The notes beneath the pieces are model-generated. The model saw only the letters and a program-made list of their open reading frames with translations. It was not told the origin of the DNA and did not search any database. A stretch of DNA of 35,029 bases, taken from assembly GCF_003363715.1 (NCBI RefSeq), contig NZ_QREV01000047.1, positions 1 to 35,029 on the forward strand, read 5' to 3'. Origin of the DNA: Parabacteroides acidifaciens (lineage in GTDB: Bacteria > Bacteroidota > Bacteroidia > Bacteroidales > Tannerellaceae). The translations under genes and the position numbers were made by a program. Shown piece after piece: positions 27,796-34,693 of this stretch (position 1 is the first letter of the stretch; each line of letters begins with the position of its first letter).

Positions 27796-27932
<137 letters not shown>

Positions 27933-27935
27933 TGG

Positions 27936-27969
27936 GTTTACACGTGCCATGTAAACTGAGATGTAAACC
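27936..27969. promoter_or_regulatory. Recombinase arm-site or operator cluster at the left end
   Basis: GTTTACA (27936-27942) is inverted relative to TGTAAAC (27950-27956). GTAAAC recurs 12 bp on and touches the integrase start codon. The motif pair in 27948-27969 is repeated at the right end (34177-34198) with the same orientation and spacing. Likely integrase or excisionase binding sites that may also regulate the integrase. Confidence 0.6.
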
Positions 27970-29169
27970 ATGAGTACAACAATTAGTGTCGTATGCTACA
28001 AATCTAAAGTATTGAAAAACAATGAGTCACCTTTGATGTTGCGTGTCTGTAAAGATGGAAAACGTAAATATGAGAGCCTTGGAATTTCACTTAATCCTAA
28101 GTATTGGGATTTCAAAGCGAATAAACCAACAGCCAAATGTCCCAACAGGGAGTATATTGAGAAGTTGATTGCAGAGAAAAAGAGAGCCTATGCAGATAAA
28201 GTTATAGAGCTAAAAGCAATGGCAAATGAATTTACAGCAACAACTTTAATGGAAAAGGTTAATAAACCTATCAGACGGAAAACTGTGAAGGATATGTTTG
28301 ATTTGTATATTCAACAGCTTGTTTCTGCCAATCGTTTGAGGTATGCAGATATGTATAAACTGACTATGAACTCACTACTCAAATTTAATAAGCATTTGAA
28401 TATCCCATTTTCAGATGTAGATGTAACTTGGCTTAAAAAGTATGAGTTGTGGTTGCAGGCACAAGGTCTTGCTATAAATACAATAGGTACACGTTTCCGC
28501 CATTTAAGAGTGATATACAACCTTGCAATAGATGAAAAGGTAGTGAAGCGTGAATATTATCCTTTCAATACGTTTAAAGTCTCCAAATTGAACCAAATTC
28601 CTGCAAAGCGGTCAATCTCAAAAGATGCTATTTTGAAGGTGTTGAATTATGAGGGAAAAACGGGGCTTGAATGTTTCTCTATAGATTTATTTACTTTTTC
28701 TTATTTGACAGCAGGTATCAATTTTGTGGATATAGCACGATTGACGGATGATAACATAATGGAGAATAGGCTTGTTTATATCCGCAAAAAGACGAAGAAG
28801 CAAATCAAAGTTCCATTGCAATCGCAAGCTGTAGAACTGATTGAAAAGTATAAGCAGCAGGATAATCCGTATTTGTTTCCAATATTATCCCCTGTCCACA
28901 AGACAGAGCAACAAAAAGTGAATAGGGTTCACAAGGTTATAGCAAAAGTCAATAAGACTTTAAAACGAATAGGAGAGCAGTTAGATGTTTCTATTGACTT
29001 GACAACCTATGTAGCAAGACATTCGTTCGCGACTGTGCTAAAAAGGTCTGGTGTAAACACATCTTTGATAAGTGAAGCACTGGGACATAGTTCAGAGAAA
29101 GTAACACAAATTTATCTGGATAGCTTTGGCAATGATCAAATGGATGATGCTATGAAGAACTTGCTCTAA
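27970..29169 (+). CDS. Tyrosine recombinase/integrase of the element
   Basis: This 399-residue integrase has an N-terminal arm-binding domain (1-85), a SAM-like core-binding domain (about 100-200) and a C-terminal catalytic domain. Visible catalytic residues are the beta-strand lysines in RKKTKKQIKVPL (near 275), Arg350, His373 in LGHSS and the nucleophile Tyr382. The box I arginine is missing: TAGINF (247-252) has no arginine where most relatives have GLR or TRGM. Tyr347 replaces the box II histidine. Loss of the first arginine is documented for IntDOT-like enzymes of Bacteroides, so activity is still possible. Its position beside tRNA-Thr and the att repeat makes it the element's own integrase. 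Confidence 0.95.
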   Translation: MSTTISVVCYKSKVLKNNESPLMLRVCKDGKRKYESLGISLNPKYWDFKANKPTAKCPNREYIEKLIAEKKRAYADKVIELKAMANEFTATTLMEKVNKPIRRKTVKDMFDLYIQQLVSANRLRYADMYKLTMNSLLKFNKHLNIPFSDVDVTWLKKYELWLQAQGLAINTIGTRFRHLRVIYNLAIDEKVVKREYYPFNTFKVSKLNQIPAKRSISKDAILKVLNYEGKTGLECFSIDLFTFSYLTAGINFVDIARLTDDNIMENRLVYIRKKTKKQIKVPLQSQAVELIEKYKQQDNPYLFPILSPVHKTEQQKVNRVHKVIAKVNKTLKRIGEQLDVSIDLTTYVARHSFATVLKRSGVNTSLISEALGHSSEKVTQIYLDSFGNDQMDDAMKNLL

Positions 29170-29250: not shown

Positions 29251-31119
29251 ATGAAATTAGCTATACAAGAAAAGAGGCTTAAACTCGGACAATTCATAGA
29301 GGATATTTATCCCGATGGATTACCTTCTGATATGATTATTAATAAAGTTGTCACGGGAATAGGGGCAACAACTTGCGAAATTAATTCTTATAGACACTCA
29401 ATAATTGTTGTCCCAAATCTGCCCGTCATAAAAAACAAAATGAAAAAGCATCCCCAAATCTTTGGGGTTTACGGAGGTGTATCACCGATCAAAATCCAAG
29501 ACTACTTGAGTAACGAAAATATTGAATGGAAAAAAATACTTACTACTCCCGAAAGTTACGAATTGGCAAAAAATGCAATTACAGATACGAAGTTCAATTT
29601 GTATGAGGATTTTTTCATGCTGATTGACGAATGTGAGAAGATTATTCAAGAGGCTAATTTCAGAGAAAAAATCATCACCCCATTTTTTGACTTTTTCAAA
29701 TTCAATGCAAAAAGTTTAATCTCGGCAACGCCACTATATGCTAAGTTAAAAGGATTTGAAAAAGATCTGTTTAATGAAATTCGGATTGTTCCCGAATATG
29801 ATTATAAAAAAGACTTGCATTTGACTTTCACCAATAACATCATTGAAGCTATGCGAGAACATGCAACAGGGACAAATATTAAAGCGATTTTCCTGAACTC
29901 CGTAAAGTATGCGCTGAAACTCATAGAAGAGTTAGGCATCCAAAAAGAGAGTAACCTATATACGTCTCCGGACAGCATAAAAGAAATCAAAGCAAACAAC
30001 AAAAATATCGCTGTTGGCTTGTATGATGAGTTTACAGGAAACTTACAGCGATACAATTTCTTTACCAGCCGTTATTATTCTGCCGTGGATTTGGATACAG
30101 ACATAAAACCAGATATTATTATGATTTCTGATTTTTGGAGCAAACCTCAAACGATTATTGATCCATATACGCATGCAATACAAATCACAGGACGTTTCAG
30201 AAACGGAAACGGAAGCATTACGCATATCGTAAAGACTAATGATAAAGTATCAGTCCGATCCGAAAAAGAAATACGGGAAAGTTTGACAAAGCAAAAAGCT
30301 TTTTGGGAAGCTATATTGACACTGCAAGAATGCGCAGATCCAGCCGTTCAACCATTTATAGATGAGATATTGGAACGCACGACATTTGGAAGTGTAATTT
30401 TTCGAGAGGGTGAATATCAAGGCAAATTGAATGGCTTTATCGTGACCAACATGATCGAGAAAGAAAGAGTGAGAGATTATTATACAGCCAGCAGCAAATT
30501 ATGTGCAGCTTATAAACAGACAGAACACTTTAATCTATCGTGTGAACACAAAAAATATGCAACAGCATCTGGCTTCATAGGAGCTAAACGACTAACGAAG
30601 GATGAACAAAGGATATTATTGGCTCAATTAAGAACTTTGAAGCCTGAAACACCTGAAGGAGAAGCCCCATTAATCATGTTTTTATCTCCGGAACAAAGCG
30701 ATAAACTGAACGAAATAATACTAAAAGCACCTTTGCTATATCAAGTCTATTCCTATGCAGGAAGTAAAGCTATTGAAAGAGTGAATTTCGATAATACCAG
30801 AATGCGGAAGCTTCTGGAAAAACAAGAACAGGAGTCAAAATACTTATCTATTATGGATGAAGTTCTATCGGCTTTCAAAATAGGCAATAAATACACGGAG
30901 GAAGAGATAATAAGCAAGCTGCAACGAATTTATGCAAAACATGAAAGAACAGCGAATTTAAAGGTTGCTGCCACAAATCTCAAACACTATTTTGAGTTAG
31001 GGAGGCGAACTACAGTCAAAAGAATCAATGGCAAAGAGATCAAAGGATATGAAATCAAAGCTCATAAATATTTTAGAAGAGAAGATGACTGGGACACATT
31101 TTATGGAGGGTCTATATAA
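29251..31119 (+). CDS. Helicase-like protein with a lysine-less P-loop, element-encoded
   Basis: This 622-residue protein shows the order of superfamily 2 helicase motifs. A P-loop-like segment, Gly36-Ile-Gly38-Ala39-Thr-Thr41, stands where GxGKT is expected, so the catalytic lysine is an alanine. Walker B-like Asp126-Glu-Cys-Glu129 follows, then motif III Ser158-Ala-Thr160 and a motif VI-like Gln311-Ile-Thr-Gly-Arg-Phe-Arg317. The C-terminal part (about 400-620) is not recognised; it includes a lysine/arginine-rich stretch near 590-610. I recall relatives with GxGAT in Bacteroidetes mobile elements, probably linked to replication or primase-like functions, but cannot verify this here. A role in element replication is plausible, and a catalytically inactive DNA-binding role is the alternative. 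It is the largest cargo gene. Confidence 0.7.
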   Translation: MKLAIQEKRLKLGQFIEDIYPDGLPSDMIINKVVTGIGATTCEINSYRHSIIVVPNLPVIKNKMKKHPQIFGVYGGVSPIKIQDYLSNENIEWKKILTTPESYELAKNAITDTKFNLYEDFFMLIDECEKIIQEANFREKIITPFFDFFKFNAKSLISATPLYAKLKGFEKDLFNEIRIVPEYDYKKDLHLTFTNNIIEAMREHATGTNIKAIFLNSVKYALKLIEELGIQKESNLYTSPDSIKEIKANNKNIAVGLYDEFTGNLQRYNFFTSRYYSAVDLDTDIKPDIIMISDFWSKPQTIIDPYTHAIQITGRFRNGNGSITHIVKTNDKVSVRSEKEIRESLTKQKAFWEAILTLQECADPAVQPFIDEILERTTFGSVIFREGEYQGKLNGFIVTNMIEKERVRDYYTASSKLCAAYKQTEHFNLSCEHKKYATASGFIGAKRLTKDEQRILLAQLRTLKPETPEGEAPLIMFLSPEQSDKLNEIILKAPLLYQVYSYAGSKAIERVNFDNTRMRKLLEKQEQESKYLSIMDEVLSAFKIGNKYTEEEIISKLQRIYAKHERTANLKVAATNLKHYFELGRRTTVKRINGKEIKGYEIKAHKYFRREDDWDTFYGGSI

Positions 31120-32063: not shown

Positions 32064-32651
32064 ATGAGTTTGAAGTATAGTACAACCACTGCGGATTATA
32101 TGGGGTGGGATGAAATGAGTAATCTGGTTAGGCGATTGGCTAAAGATGGAGATTATAAAATGTCTCTGTTGATTGCCGTTGGTTGCTTTTGGGGATTGCG
32201 CATATCTGATATATTGTCATTGCGCTGGAAGGATATTCTAAATGTGGATGAGTTTACTTTGCAGGAAAAGAAAACAAAGAAGAACCGCACAATTAGAATT
32301 AATCCTCAACTAAAAAGGCATATTGCAGAATGTTACAACCATATTCAGCCAATAGGAATTAATTCGCCTATATTGGTAAGTCAAAAGGGAACAACGTTCA
32401 CGATACAGAGAATTAACGTAATTCTAAAGGAGATTAAAGCCAAATACAGGCTAAAAGTTCAGAATTTCAGTTGTCACAGTCTGCGGAAAACATTTGGTAG
32501 GCAGGTGTACAATCAAAATTCAGAAAATGCAGAATTGGCTTTAGTTAAATTGATGGAGTTATTTAATCATTCCAGTGTGGCAATTACGAAGCGGTATTTA
32601 GGATTAAGGCAGGAAGAAATATTGCAGGCTTATGATAGTCTTTCCTTTTAG
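32064..32651 (+). CDS. Short tyrosine recombinase (catalytic domain only)
   Basis: This 195-residue protein has the full active-site set: Arg46 (GLRISD), lysine in the KKTKKN stretch near 70, His138-x-x-Arg141, His169 (FNHSS) and the nucleophile Tyr178 (TKRYLG). It lacks the N-terminal arm-binding and core-binding domains, like the FimB/FimE-size recombinases. Such proteins often invert promoter segments or act on small mobile sites, but I found no clear pair of inversion sites around it. It is followed by a structured leader and a cargo lipoprotein. It may be an independent recombinase, or partner the larger integrase. Confidence 0.9.
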   Translation: MSLKYSTTTADYMGWDEMSNLVRRLAKDGDYKMSLLIAVGCFWGLRISDILSLRWKDILNVDEFTLQEKKTKKNRTIRINPQLKRHIAECYNHIQPIGINSPILVSQKGTTFTIQRINVILKEIKAKYRLKVQNFSCHSLRKTFGRQVYNQNSENAELALVKLMELFNHSSVAITKRYLGLRQEEILQAYDSLSF

Positions 32652-33027: not shown

Positions 33028-33984
33028 ATGAGAAATCTTCTTTTTAAAGTGTGTACTGTTGTTCTTGGTTCTGTGTTACTATTATCCAGTTGTGATAAAG
33101 ATCATTGGGATGAACAGCAAGGAGATTGTTTCTATGGTTACAAGGTGGAAAATCGGAACGTTTTTGATCTGCGAAGCATTACTCACTGTCCATATAATCA
33201 AGATACAGCATTCTTGACTGGTATTAAAAATGAAAAGCATTGGATTGGTATGTTTGACCAACAAACGAAAAAACAGCTACAAGAGTGGAACGGATCGGAA
33301 ACAATTGATCGAGAAATAAAAATAGATAGAGGATACGGAGAAATTGAAACTATGAGACTTTCTGCATTCCATTTTGAAAGTGATATTCATAAAACAAGTT
33401 GGGGATTTGTTATGATTCCGTATTATACAGAAAGAGGTTCTAACTGGGGTATAGGAATGTTAGAAGCAGGAGGTTATGCAAGAGATATTCTTCTTTTAAA
33501 TGGAGACAAATTGATTGTCTATCCTCTTAATAATCCGGGTATTGTTCAACCTCATTGGTTTCAAGAGAGTATTGTCGTATCATCTTATGAATATGGTGGT
33601 GAAGGAATAGATTATACAGTTTTATCACCTGATGGGAAAAAGGTTGTGGATATGAAAGATAGACCTCAAAACTGGTTAGTAGAGGAAAAAAATATTTTCC
33701 CTGTTTCATATACAGACGGTATAGGTCTTCGTGATTGGAGAAGGGATGCTGAAAGATGTGATATTCGTATTTATAGAAATAATTACGCTATTAGTGAAAC
33801 TGTTTGGGAAACACCTATTCCCTCTTTGCTAAACATCAAAGGTGACGCTCGTTTCAATATAACAGTCCTGGAACAAGGCAATCCGATCTGGAAATACCGG
33901 ATTGATGTTACCAATCGGGACGGCAGCAAGCAGCAAGTTCTTTTCACTGTCAATGTGGAAACCGGAGCGTTGACGGAAATCTAA
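33028..33984 (+). CDS. Hypothetical lipoprotein, element cargo
   Basis: I do not recognise this 318-residue protein. An SPII signal ends LLLSSC (Cys22) and is followed by D-K-D-H-W-D-E-Q-Q, suggesting surface lipid anchoring. The rest appears beta-rich, with repeated W/Y-G segments (KTSWGFVMIPYY, SNWGIGML, EYGGEG) that could be a propeller-like or beta-sandwich fold. It has no membrane segment and no enzyme motif that I recognise. The leader upstream can form a terminator, so it is probably regulated at the RNA level. It is the last gene of the element and ends in a hairpin that covers its stop codon. Confidence 0.75.
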   Translation: MRNLLFKVCTVVLGSVLLLSSCDKDHWDEQQGDCFYGYKVENRNVFDLRSITHCPYNQDTAFLTGIKNEKHWIGMFDQQTKKQLQEWNGSETIDREIKIDRGYGEIETMRLSAFHFESDIHKTSWGFVMIPYYTERGSNWGIGMLEAGGYARDILLLNGDKLIVYPLNNPGIVQPHWFQESIVVSSYEYGGEGIDYTVLSPDGKKVVDMKDRPQNWLVEEKNIFPVSYTDGIGLRDWRRDAERCDIRIYRNNYAISETVWETPIPSLLNIKGDARFNITVLEQGNPIWKYRIDVTNRDGSKQQVLFTVNVETGALTEI

Positions 33985-34176: not shown

Positions 34177-34198
34177 CATGTAAACCAATATGTAAACC
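34177..34198. promoter_or_regulatory. Right-end paired GTAAAC motif
   Basis: Two GTAAACC motifs 12 bp apart, matching 27948-27969 in order, direction and spacing. Likely arm-type sites for the element's recombinase or excisionase. Confidence 0.6.
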
Positions 34199-34241
34199 AG
34201 ACAGAAAATAAAAAGAAAATAGCAAATAGGATAACTGCTAA

Positions 34242-34346
34242 GCCGCAATAGCTCAGCTGGTTGCGTTGGAGGCGAAGCCTCTGACGCTGAAAGAGAGCAA
34301 CGCATTCGTAATGCGTAGGTCGCCGGTTCAAGTCCGGCTTTCGGCT
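34242..34346 (+). pseudogene. tRNA-Thr-like copy with a 32-nt hairpin in the D-loop, at the right junction
   Basis: A complete tRNA shape of 105 nt: acceptor GCCGCAA with TTTCGGC (one mismatch at C5), D-stem GCTC/GAGC, anticodon CGT, intact T-arm. Compared with tRNA-Thr at 27796 it has a 32-nt insertion between GGT and AGAGC (34262-34293). This insertion contains an 11-bp stem with two wobble pairs (GCGTTGGAGGC with GCCTCTGACGC, loop GAA). The 5' part differs from the left tRNA at several bases, and no strong promoter precedes it. It is probably not a working tRNA. Confidence 0.75.
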
Positions 34347-34410
34347 CACAAAATCAAGCAGTTATCTTTTTAGGTAACTGCTTTTTTTATGCCTTTTTCT
34401 GTGTTTTTCG
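34294..34410 (+). repeat. Right attachment-site repeat (attR)
   Basis: Repeats 27816-27932 with one mismatch, including the tRNA 3' part and the downstream hairpin, here with fuller A-U pairing at 34377. Confidence 0.9.
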
Positions 34411-34416
34411 GGGTTT

Positions 34417-34485
34417 GTTTAAACCGGTGTTTAAACCATGAGTACAACAATTAGGACTCACCCGATAATCATTGGGGATAAATAA
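34417..34485 (+). pseudogene. Start of a second, lost integrase gene
   Basis: GTTTAAACC occurs at 34417-34425 and 34429-34437, 12 bp apart as in the GTAAAC pairs of the left end, and touches an ATG at 34438. The first 17 bases (34438-34454) match the integrase start at 27970, giving M-S-T-T-I. The frame then departs and stops after 15 codons. This is the residue of a sister element beside the same tRNA-type site. Confidence 0.7.
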
Positions 34486-34512: not shown

Positions 34513-34693
34513 TAAATGATGATTTATCGGTGCGTTTGCTCGTATTTACCGGACGCAGACGAGCGCAGATTACGCAGAGGAACGCAGACTTATTTTCTTT
34601 TAAAACAATAAATGATCTGCGTTCGTCTGCGTCGTCTGCGAAATCTGCGTCCGGTAATACAAACATAGCGACACCCCGTTAAATCATCATTTA
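34513..34693. repeat. Nested inverted repeat of ACGCAGA-type units
   Basis: Outer arms TAAATGATGATTTA (34513-34526) and its exact reverse complement (34680-34693) enclose a larger imperfect inverted repeat, 34546-34588 with 34616-34657. The inner arms consist of ACGCAGA-like units starting at TTACCGG. No gene is inside. It looks like a palindromic MITE or REP-type element. Confidence 0.8.

Follow-up and report, generated by a model that had tools for sequence, protein, structure and literature searches.

Mobile elements that insert into tRNA genes usually leave only a 3' fragment of the target at their far end. The right end of one such element in the DNA analyzed here (the window, meaning the whole 35,029-nucleotide stretch of Parabacteroides acidifaciens contig NZ_QREV01000047.1) instead has a complete tRNA-like shape with a hairpin in its D-loop. 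This locus raises the questions of whether the additional 5' half belongs to the element, whether the hairpin is a kept feature, and what a folded sequence of this kind could do when the element enters or leaves the chromosome.

The element and its tRNA-like right end

The element is about 6.5 kb long and lies directly behind tRNA-Thr(CGT). Its features are as follows:

27796..27869, + strand: tRNA-Thr(CGT), the target restored at the left junction (attL), with a host 5' half and an element 3' half (ARAGORN; Rfam tRNA, 75 bits)
27878..27910, + strand: intrinsic-terminator-like hairpin with a T-run, separating the tRNA from int (sequence, fold)
27948..27970, + strand: putative arm-type repeats, left pair CATGTAAACTGAGATGTAAACCA (direct repeat D5 with 34177-34199)
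27970..29169, + strand: tyrosine integrase, 399 aa (Pfam Arm-DNA-bind_5, Phage_int_SAM_5 and Phage_integrase; relatives)
29251..31119, + strand: SF2-type helicase, 622 aa (cluster C0; AlphaFold mean pLDDT 79; Foldseek)
32064..32651, + strand: second tyrosine recombinase, 195 aa, catalytic domain only (Pfam; PHROG integrase)
33028..33984, + strand: 318-aa protein with no family match in Pfam, NCBIfam or PHROGs
34177..34199, + strand: putative arm-type repeats, right pair CATGTAAACCAATATGTAAACCA (direct repeat D5)
34242..34261, + strand: element-borne tRNA 5' half GCCGCAATAGCTCAGCTGGT, comprising acceptor strand, D-stem and D-loop GG (90% to the target tRNA)
34262..34293, + strand: D-loop insert, 32 nt (fold, covariation, strand asymmetry, loop types)
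34294..34346, + strand: right-junction tRNA 3' part, starting with AGAGC and holding the crossover region in the anticodon arm (identity block; boundaries in L029 and L040)
34347..34454, + strand: probable stub of a second, tandem element, with terminator, arm-like TTTAAACC repeats and 17 nt from the start of an int gene (direct repeats D1, D2)

The two features by which a tRNA-targeting integrase island is recognized were both found, in that the tyrosine integrase adjoins a tRNA restored by the element and the displaced tRNA 3' part (34294-34346) lies at the far end. The restored tRNA-Thr at 27796-27869, upstream of which a TATATTTG box begins at a distance of 33 nt, is complete after integration as judged by ARAGORN. 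Identity with the left copy starts at A34294, which is A21 of the tRNA, and continues for 123 nt at 98% through the tRNA and into the terminator (copy spacing 6478). The insert stands directly before A21, and the 5' half ahead of it (GCCGCAATAGCTCAGCTGGT, 34242-34261) matches the 5' half of the target tRNA at 18/20 positions (90%, direct repeat D7).

A preliminary description of this locus had reported a whole tRNA-Thr-like shape with a 32-nt D-loop insert and an 11-bp stem, which we confirmed at 34242-34346: positions 34263-34273 pair with 34277-34287 in nine Watson-Crick and two G.T pairs around a GAA loop. ARAGORN did not call the tRNA-like sequence at the element's right end as a tRNA and the Rfam tRNA model covered only 34286-34346 of it. 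The fold energy of 34261-34300 beat 200/200 dinucleotide shuffles (z -3.9) and that of the full 105 nt beat 199/200. The same description had placed the element's right junction here; the DNA beyond 34346 is not plain host sequence. Position 34346 is followed by a terminator, by arm-like repeats and by the start of another integrase gene, represented by its first codons (34438-34454, ATGAGTACAACAATTAG). A second element thus probably once stood behind the first, and we infer that two insertions in tandem meet at the right end of the element, of which the second has been reduced to a stub. Two further repeats were seen in the vicinity: the flank ahead of the tRNA-like sequence (34210-34239) is a degenerate inverted copy of the element terminator (23/30 Watson-Crick), and nested inverted repeats (I4, I7) occupy 34552-34640, beyond the element.

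Among the window's element and its relatives, described below, the commonest cargo family is the SF2-type helicase (cluster C0, represented by 13 proteins across 12 of the 16 elements compared), for which a Pfam scan of the window's 622-aa protein gave no match, and for which a Foldseek search with its AlphaFold model matched RecQ-type helicases, the HSV-1 origin-binding protein and viral helicases. RadC-like, DUF3871 and HTH proteins are also among the cargo. The 195-aa tyrosine recombinase of the window has relatives in L040 and L142 (cluster C5).

Hairpin ends in other Bacteroidales genomes

Integrase relatives at E up to 1e-60 were identified in 16 of 123 genomes of the window's own family, and 18 integrase stretches and two other places were then compared. 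The same right-end hairpin was present in 5 of the 18 stretches (L033 at tRNA-Phe, L036 at tRNA-Thr, L038 at tRNA-Lys, L039 at tRNA-Met and L040 at tRNA-Gly), and a full tRNA with no hairpin was present at the right end in four (L028, L029, L030 and L037). In L032 int was reversed relative to the full tRNAs, and in 8/18 stretches the right end was not seen. A covariance model was built from six ends (the window, L033, L036, L038, L039 and L040). In the own family it gave a match below 1e-5 in at least 8 of the 123 genomes, at 10 or more places; in a sample of the order, at least 9 of 393 genomes, the window's own included, had a match below 1e-4 that withstood inspection. One further family had matches in 5/56 genomes and another in 1/9, the latter an already known member, and in a sample of the phylum at 1e-5 only the own genome matched (1/395). 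Among 22 named loci from GTDB contigs were three more ends, namely L162 (a Bacteroides MAG), L163 (a Muribaculaceae MAG) and L172 (Phocaeicola coprocola).

In total, 25 right ends with a hairpin at the same place in the D-loop, beside an element-borne 5' tRNA half, were kept, and their targets cover six amino acids (tRNA-Thr, Phe, Lys, Gly, Met and Val). For 16 of them, the window included, both ends were available together with the target tRNA and the integrase, complete or in part. The hairpin end is a feature of a mobile-element family that inserts into Bacteroidales tRNA genes. The preliminary description was right in proposing that the tRNA-like sequence belongs to the element's own end, so that in the circular form it would lie across attP. 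Nineteen of the 25 ends (L154 being re-found) came from the model search, whose scoring favours both G.U pairs and loops resembling GAA, and the counts of both given below are inflated by this. An int-like gene or stub stands behind the right end in 7/25 (the window, L138, L145, L154, L163, L172 and L183) and also in L188. The latter is a 26th end, outside all counts for the 25 members, from Bacteroides finegoldii NZ_OY725919.1 (L188:24775-24843); it has a target tRNA-Lys(TTT), an integrase 57% identical, and a long hairpin with the inner loop C(GCA)G, and scored only 21.8 bits with the model. The integrase behind it is a distant one (24%), and its record is called a plasmid and carries genes usual for chromosomes.

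Eight of 20 places from the model search were dropped. Two look coding (L139, the second model match in the own genome, and L150, both of which we take to be dxr-like coding sequence), and the other six (L148, L149, L151, L152, L153 and L155) correspond to normal tRNA genes or to a cluster of them. Weak matches below approximately 29 bits, among those listed and inspected, looked for the most part like ordinary tRNAs with the insert deleted. One scan of viral contigs gave no relative. Integrase matches in 89 phage and 170 plasmid records were all below 60% identity, and the best two and the best three, respectively, were inspected; one of these is L188, with its further hairpin end. Two records labelled Bacteriophage sp. 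(L186, MT839350.1, and L187, MT838459.1) start inside the 3' part of a tRNA-like sequence and continue into an integrase about 50% identical to that of the window; instead of phages, they may represent fragments of elements of this kind.

Dispersed copies, as an IS, a MITE or another repeat would have, were rejected, as the whole right end occurs once in its own genome. The hairpin pattern with up to two mismatches gave 36+37 matches there versus 26+21 for a reversed control, and by eye no target-site duplication or terminal repeats were noticed. The outcomes named in advance as refuting the preliminary reading, a copy limited to this genome amid random sequence or an ordinary IS or MITE insertion with target duplication, were not borne out: relatives in other genomes have the end, and it is no dispersed repeat in its own.

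Conservation of the fold and the strand that folds

Covariation was measured on 24 members aligned to the model (L172 was left out). The score for the insert stem was 0.357 versus 0.167 for shuffled alignments, a value that 0/500 shuffles reached, and two-sided changes were found at 8 of 10 stem pairs, in 35 cells versus 10.0 in shuffles (0/500). Standard pairs filled 91.5% of cells versus 80.9% when shuffled. None of the 500 shuffles matched any of these values, with the exception of 2 for the number of pairs, and when the partner strand was slid by one to three columns the covariation score fell to 0.059-0.104. These values carry two biases in favour of structure, since the model both guided the alignment and supplied most of the members; the sequences are, in addition, related. 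Among raw inserts, 18/25 outfold their dinucleotide shuffles at p<0.01, and L039, L040, L136 and L145 do not at p<0.05. The pairing has been kept while the letters changed, and this suggests a role for the fold in the element's entry into the chromosome or its exit. The preliminary description had also considered the hairpin as the remnant of a small insertion into an earlier target tRNA, a notion that leaves the 25 inserts with changed letters and kept pairing unexplained.

The mismatches differ between the strands. When stems were picked by Watson-Crick pairs only, a strand-neutral rule (by which a different, weaker hairpin was picked in L145 and L154), the stem cells across the 25 ends comprised 249 Watson-Crick, 21 G.T, 3 A.C and 15 others, a count biased by a model search that rewards G.U and drawn from related members whose events are not independent. 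The six ends found without the covariance model had 8 G.T versus 0 A.C. Since a G.T on the sense strand is an A.C on the other, this excess suggests that selection is on the tRNA-sense strand, which seems to be the strand that folds. With DNA energies, the hairpin of the sense strand is more stable than that of the other strand in 19/25.

The same data bear on the idea that the insert is a palindromic site at which a protein, such as an excision factor, binds the duplex. An imperfect AAAGC...GCTTT core does recur in several members; however, the distance between half-sites ranges from 3 to 13 nt, the letters vary widely, and the mismatches are mostly sense-strand G.T and not equally A.C, and we consider such a site improbable.

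The loops are of a restricted type. Twelve of the 25 ends have C(GAA)G, four C(GCA)G and five C(GNNA)G, the exceptions being L147, L154, L162 and L172; the GAA share is inflated because all six seed ends have GAA and the model favours it. A C(GNA)G or C(GNNA)G loop was present in 21/25 inserts versus 1/16 terminator hairpins of the same elements (L184). In the GNNA loops the third place is a pyrimidine in 5/5, so that none is GNRA. GNA and GNNA loops closed by at least two G-C pairs are described as extraordinarily stable DNA mini-hairpins (PMC4686876).

Drift of the element-borne tRNA half

When the element-borne half was compared with the target tRNA of the same genome in 16 elements, the acceptor strand differed at 33/112 positions and the D-arm at 17/192, with a single indel in L147 accounting for 10 of the 17 D-arm differences. 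Among host tRNAs that share an amino acid, 25/161 acceptor and 14/276 D-arm positions differ. Five of the seven acceptor positions are changed in each of L033, L141 and L143, and the D-stem is paired in 95.8% of cells. The D-arm is thus kept at about the host level and the acceptor strand has drifted beyond that of hosts. This pattern disfavours a functional tRNA and favours retention of the D-arm together with the hairpin.

This drift also weakens the proposal of a decoy or regulatory tRNA made in the preliminary description. A transcribed tRNA-like RNA could act in trans, as a decoy or pseudo-tRNA, on tRNA processing, charging or a tRNA-cutting defence. The kept D-stem and the sense-strand pairing of the insert would suit such a molecule, as would the tRNA 3' part that supplies an anticodon arm and T-arm. 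It is unlikely, given the acceptor strand's departure from the target and the lack of a TANNTTTG box in the 100 nt upstream of all 24 members whose sequence reaches that far (in L154 it reaches 65 nt).

An integrase tree of 19 rows (14 hairpin members, four with a full tRNA, and L032 apart) placed hairpin members on both sides of the midpoint root. The hairpin-free L028-L030 and L037 are nested inside, which suggests that the hairpin was lost at least twice, and it is dispensable since these four carry a full tRNA in its place. Tree neighbours can differ in target (L162 at tRNA-Lys and L142 at tRNA-Phe; L038 at tRNA-Lys and L039 at tRNA-Met), and in each the 5' half resembles its own target, with 3/7 acceptor positions changed in L162.

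The hairpin could alternatively be a neutral spacer, in which the arm-to-core distance and a decayed tRNA copy were kept and the palindrome is incidental. In accord with this, the arm-to-core spacing of hairpin-free L028-L030 (-115/-103 or -116/-104) equals that of many hairpin members. The two-sided changes in 8/10 stem pairs, the loop type and the occurrence of hairpins on either side of the midpoint root speak against it, and it is disfavoured, with little chance of being correct.

Position of the crossover and spacing of attP

The junction tRNAs of relatives diverge past the anticodon arm in L029, and in L040 the exact sharing is only 27 nt, from GAGC to GGGTC. Since they differ beyond the anticodon arm, sequence comparison puts strand exchange in the anticodon arm, beside the hairpin but outside it, and the insert would lie just outside the expected core-type site. 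The preliminary suggestion of a recombination site recognized by shape may hold, but the crossover lies outside the hairpin. Taken together, the right end is a conserved attP module composed of an arm-site-like repeat pair, a hairpin-bearing 5' half of the target tRNA and the anticodon-arm crossover. In L136 the centre of the anticodon loop reads CTTCCCAAG at the left junction and CTTGGGGAAG at the right, as if the overlap had been turned round.

The distance from the start of the tRNA-like sequence to GAGC is 52-54 nt in 15/25 members and 63-65 nt in 8/25 (60 in L147 and 49 in L172). The two main classes are about one turn apart, and helical phasing of this length was not significant by length class (p 0.094). 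In the window the right arm-type motifs start 114 and 102 nt ahead of GAGC. Helical phasing of the arm-to-core spacing (82-84, 102-104, 114 and 123-126 nt) was rejected, being broken by L172 (89) and L185 (97), with p 0.39 by class, as counted in 21/25 members (L137, L141, L144 and L162 had no clean arm pair) and with one of three motif matches picked by hand in L138, L142, L163 and L172.

These observations bear on the possibility that the hairpin acts as DNA, such that the tRNA-sense strand of a supercoiled or single-stranded attP extrudes a very stable mini-hairpin, bringing the D-arm beside the core or presenting a folded site to the integrase or to a replication or transfer protein. The mini-hairpin loops, the stability of the sense strand, the resemblance by fold of the commonest cargo protein to RecQ-type and viral origin-binding helicases and the near one-turn difference between the length classes are in its favour. 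On the other hand, one stem pair is G.U in 13/24 members, its commonest type there and one natural for RNA and poor for DNA, no relaxase or HUH protein was seen among the 24/120 ORFs scanned against Pfam, and neither phasing was significant. We regard an extruded DNA hairpin as possible, if on the doubtful side.

A possible folded leader of int in the excised circle

The explanation that we tentatively favour, while recognizing that it may well prove wrong, is that, once the element is a circle, the tRNA-like sequence forms a folded leader ahead of int. The anatomy is shared with ICEKp1, ICEclc and ICEEc1, in which excision switches int from the tRNA promoter to a promoter at the element's 3' end and stem-loops lie in the leader (PMC13023037). 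In the window, int likewise lies directly behind the tRNA with a terminator-like hairpin between them, and the left tRNA is followed by a hairpin in 16/16 elements compared. In the integrated state, int would be reached from the host tRNA promoter through the terminator. Excision would join the left and right ends and bring the folded tRNA-like sequence directly upstream of the element's terminator and int, which in the circle would be read from the element's right end via the tRNA-like leader. The hairpin and the drifted acceptor strand might keep this leader from tRNA maturation while the D-stem keeps the 3' half folded, so that the folded tRNA-sense strand would help to set the state of the excised form.

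Several observations bear on the supply of transcripts. A TANNTTTG box, presumably the Bacteroidales promoter motif, lies ahead of the host tRNA in 15/16 elements and between tRNA and int in 0/16. The last ORF of at least 110 aa before the right end is directed towards that end in 16/16. When right ends were scored for promoter-like boxes against 60 mononucleotide shuffles each, 3/24 members (L144, L162 and L172) exceeded every shuffle, and the right end of the window's element has no such box; given that only these 3/24 beat shuffles, a far-end promoter is a conjectural step. The loops, being of the extra-stable DNA mini-hairpin type and not RNA GNRA or UUCG, speak against an RNA leader. The hairpin may either halt tRNA maturation of the leader or act as an extruded DNA hairpin at attP.

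An antiterminator, in which the upstream flank pairs with the terminator, was considered and rejected except as a minor idea. Duplex energies reached p<=0.05 in 10/16 elements, yet in L184 and L185 the host flanks pair better; by strict Watson-Crick pairing only the window was clear (p<0.002), with L136 (0.048) and L141 (0.050) borderline. The candidate helices in the 16 elements have 2 G.T and 4 A.C mismatches, and minimum-energy folds of the joined site kept the terminator in 14/16 (by eye).

More broadly, we speculate, with some reserve, that attP throughout this integrase family is a state switch made from a tRNA mimic, with a 5' half captured from every new target and a sense-strand hairpin, whereby the extra-arm fold of the excised end would control either the expression of the integrase or the competence for integration. 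An attachment site is usually regarded as linear duplex DNA to which proteins bind; in these elements a selected one-strand fold, maintained by compensatory changes, adjoins the core of a tRNA-site integrase and persists through changes of target. The hairpin ends are a testable case for structure-dependent control of integration or integrase expression, and the covariance model finds such ends, whereas ARAGORN missed that of the window.

Comparison with known systems

In the literature searched, in which subscription papers were mostly outside the scope, no description of a D-loop hairpin at an attachment site was found. The element shares with tRNA islands of the Islander class an integrase behind a restored tRNA, an attP that gives the 3' half, a displaced fragment at the far end and a crossover in the anticodon arm; it differs in that attP here additionally carries the target's 5' half, whose D-loop holds a structured insert. 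Sublocations of integration within tRNA genes were reportedly set out by Williams in 2002. In integrons, attC is a one-strand hairpin near a tyrosine recombinase site. In contrast, the crossover here lies by sequence comparison in the anticodon arm outside the hairpin and the integrase has an arm-binding domain; exchange within the hairpin, as at attC, was rejected on the limits of junction identity, which place it in the anticodon arm.

Phages with tRNA-dependent lysogeny similarly couple tRNA sequence, tyrosine integrase and attP, but their integration leaves the host tRNA unrestored and a tRNA of the phage makes up for the loss, whereas the left tRNA here is complete (PMC10865867). An altered far-end tRNA copy is likewise reported at the attR of PICIs, in the form of deletions beginning in the acceptor stem of the fragment (PMC10111431); the element described here has an intact 3' part and is altered in the element-borne 5' half. 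Closest to the reading as an int leader are ICEKp1, ICEclc and ICEEc1, which have int behind the tRNA on the same strand, stem-loops in the leader and a far end that becomes the int leader upon excision; the accessible part of that report mentions no tRNA 5' half or D-loop hairpin, and the 3'-end promoter, which was measured there, is a guess here (PMC13023037).
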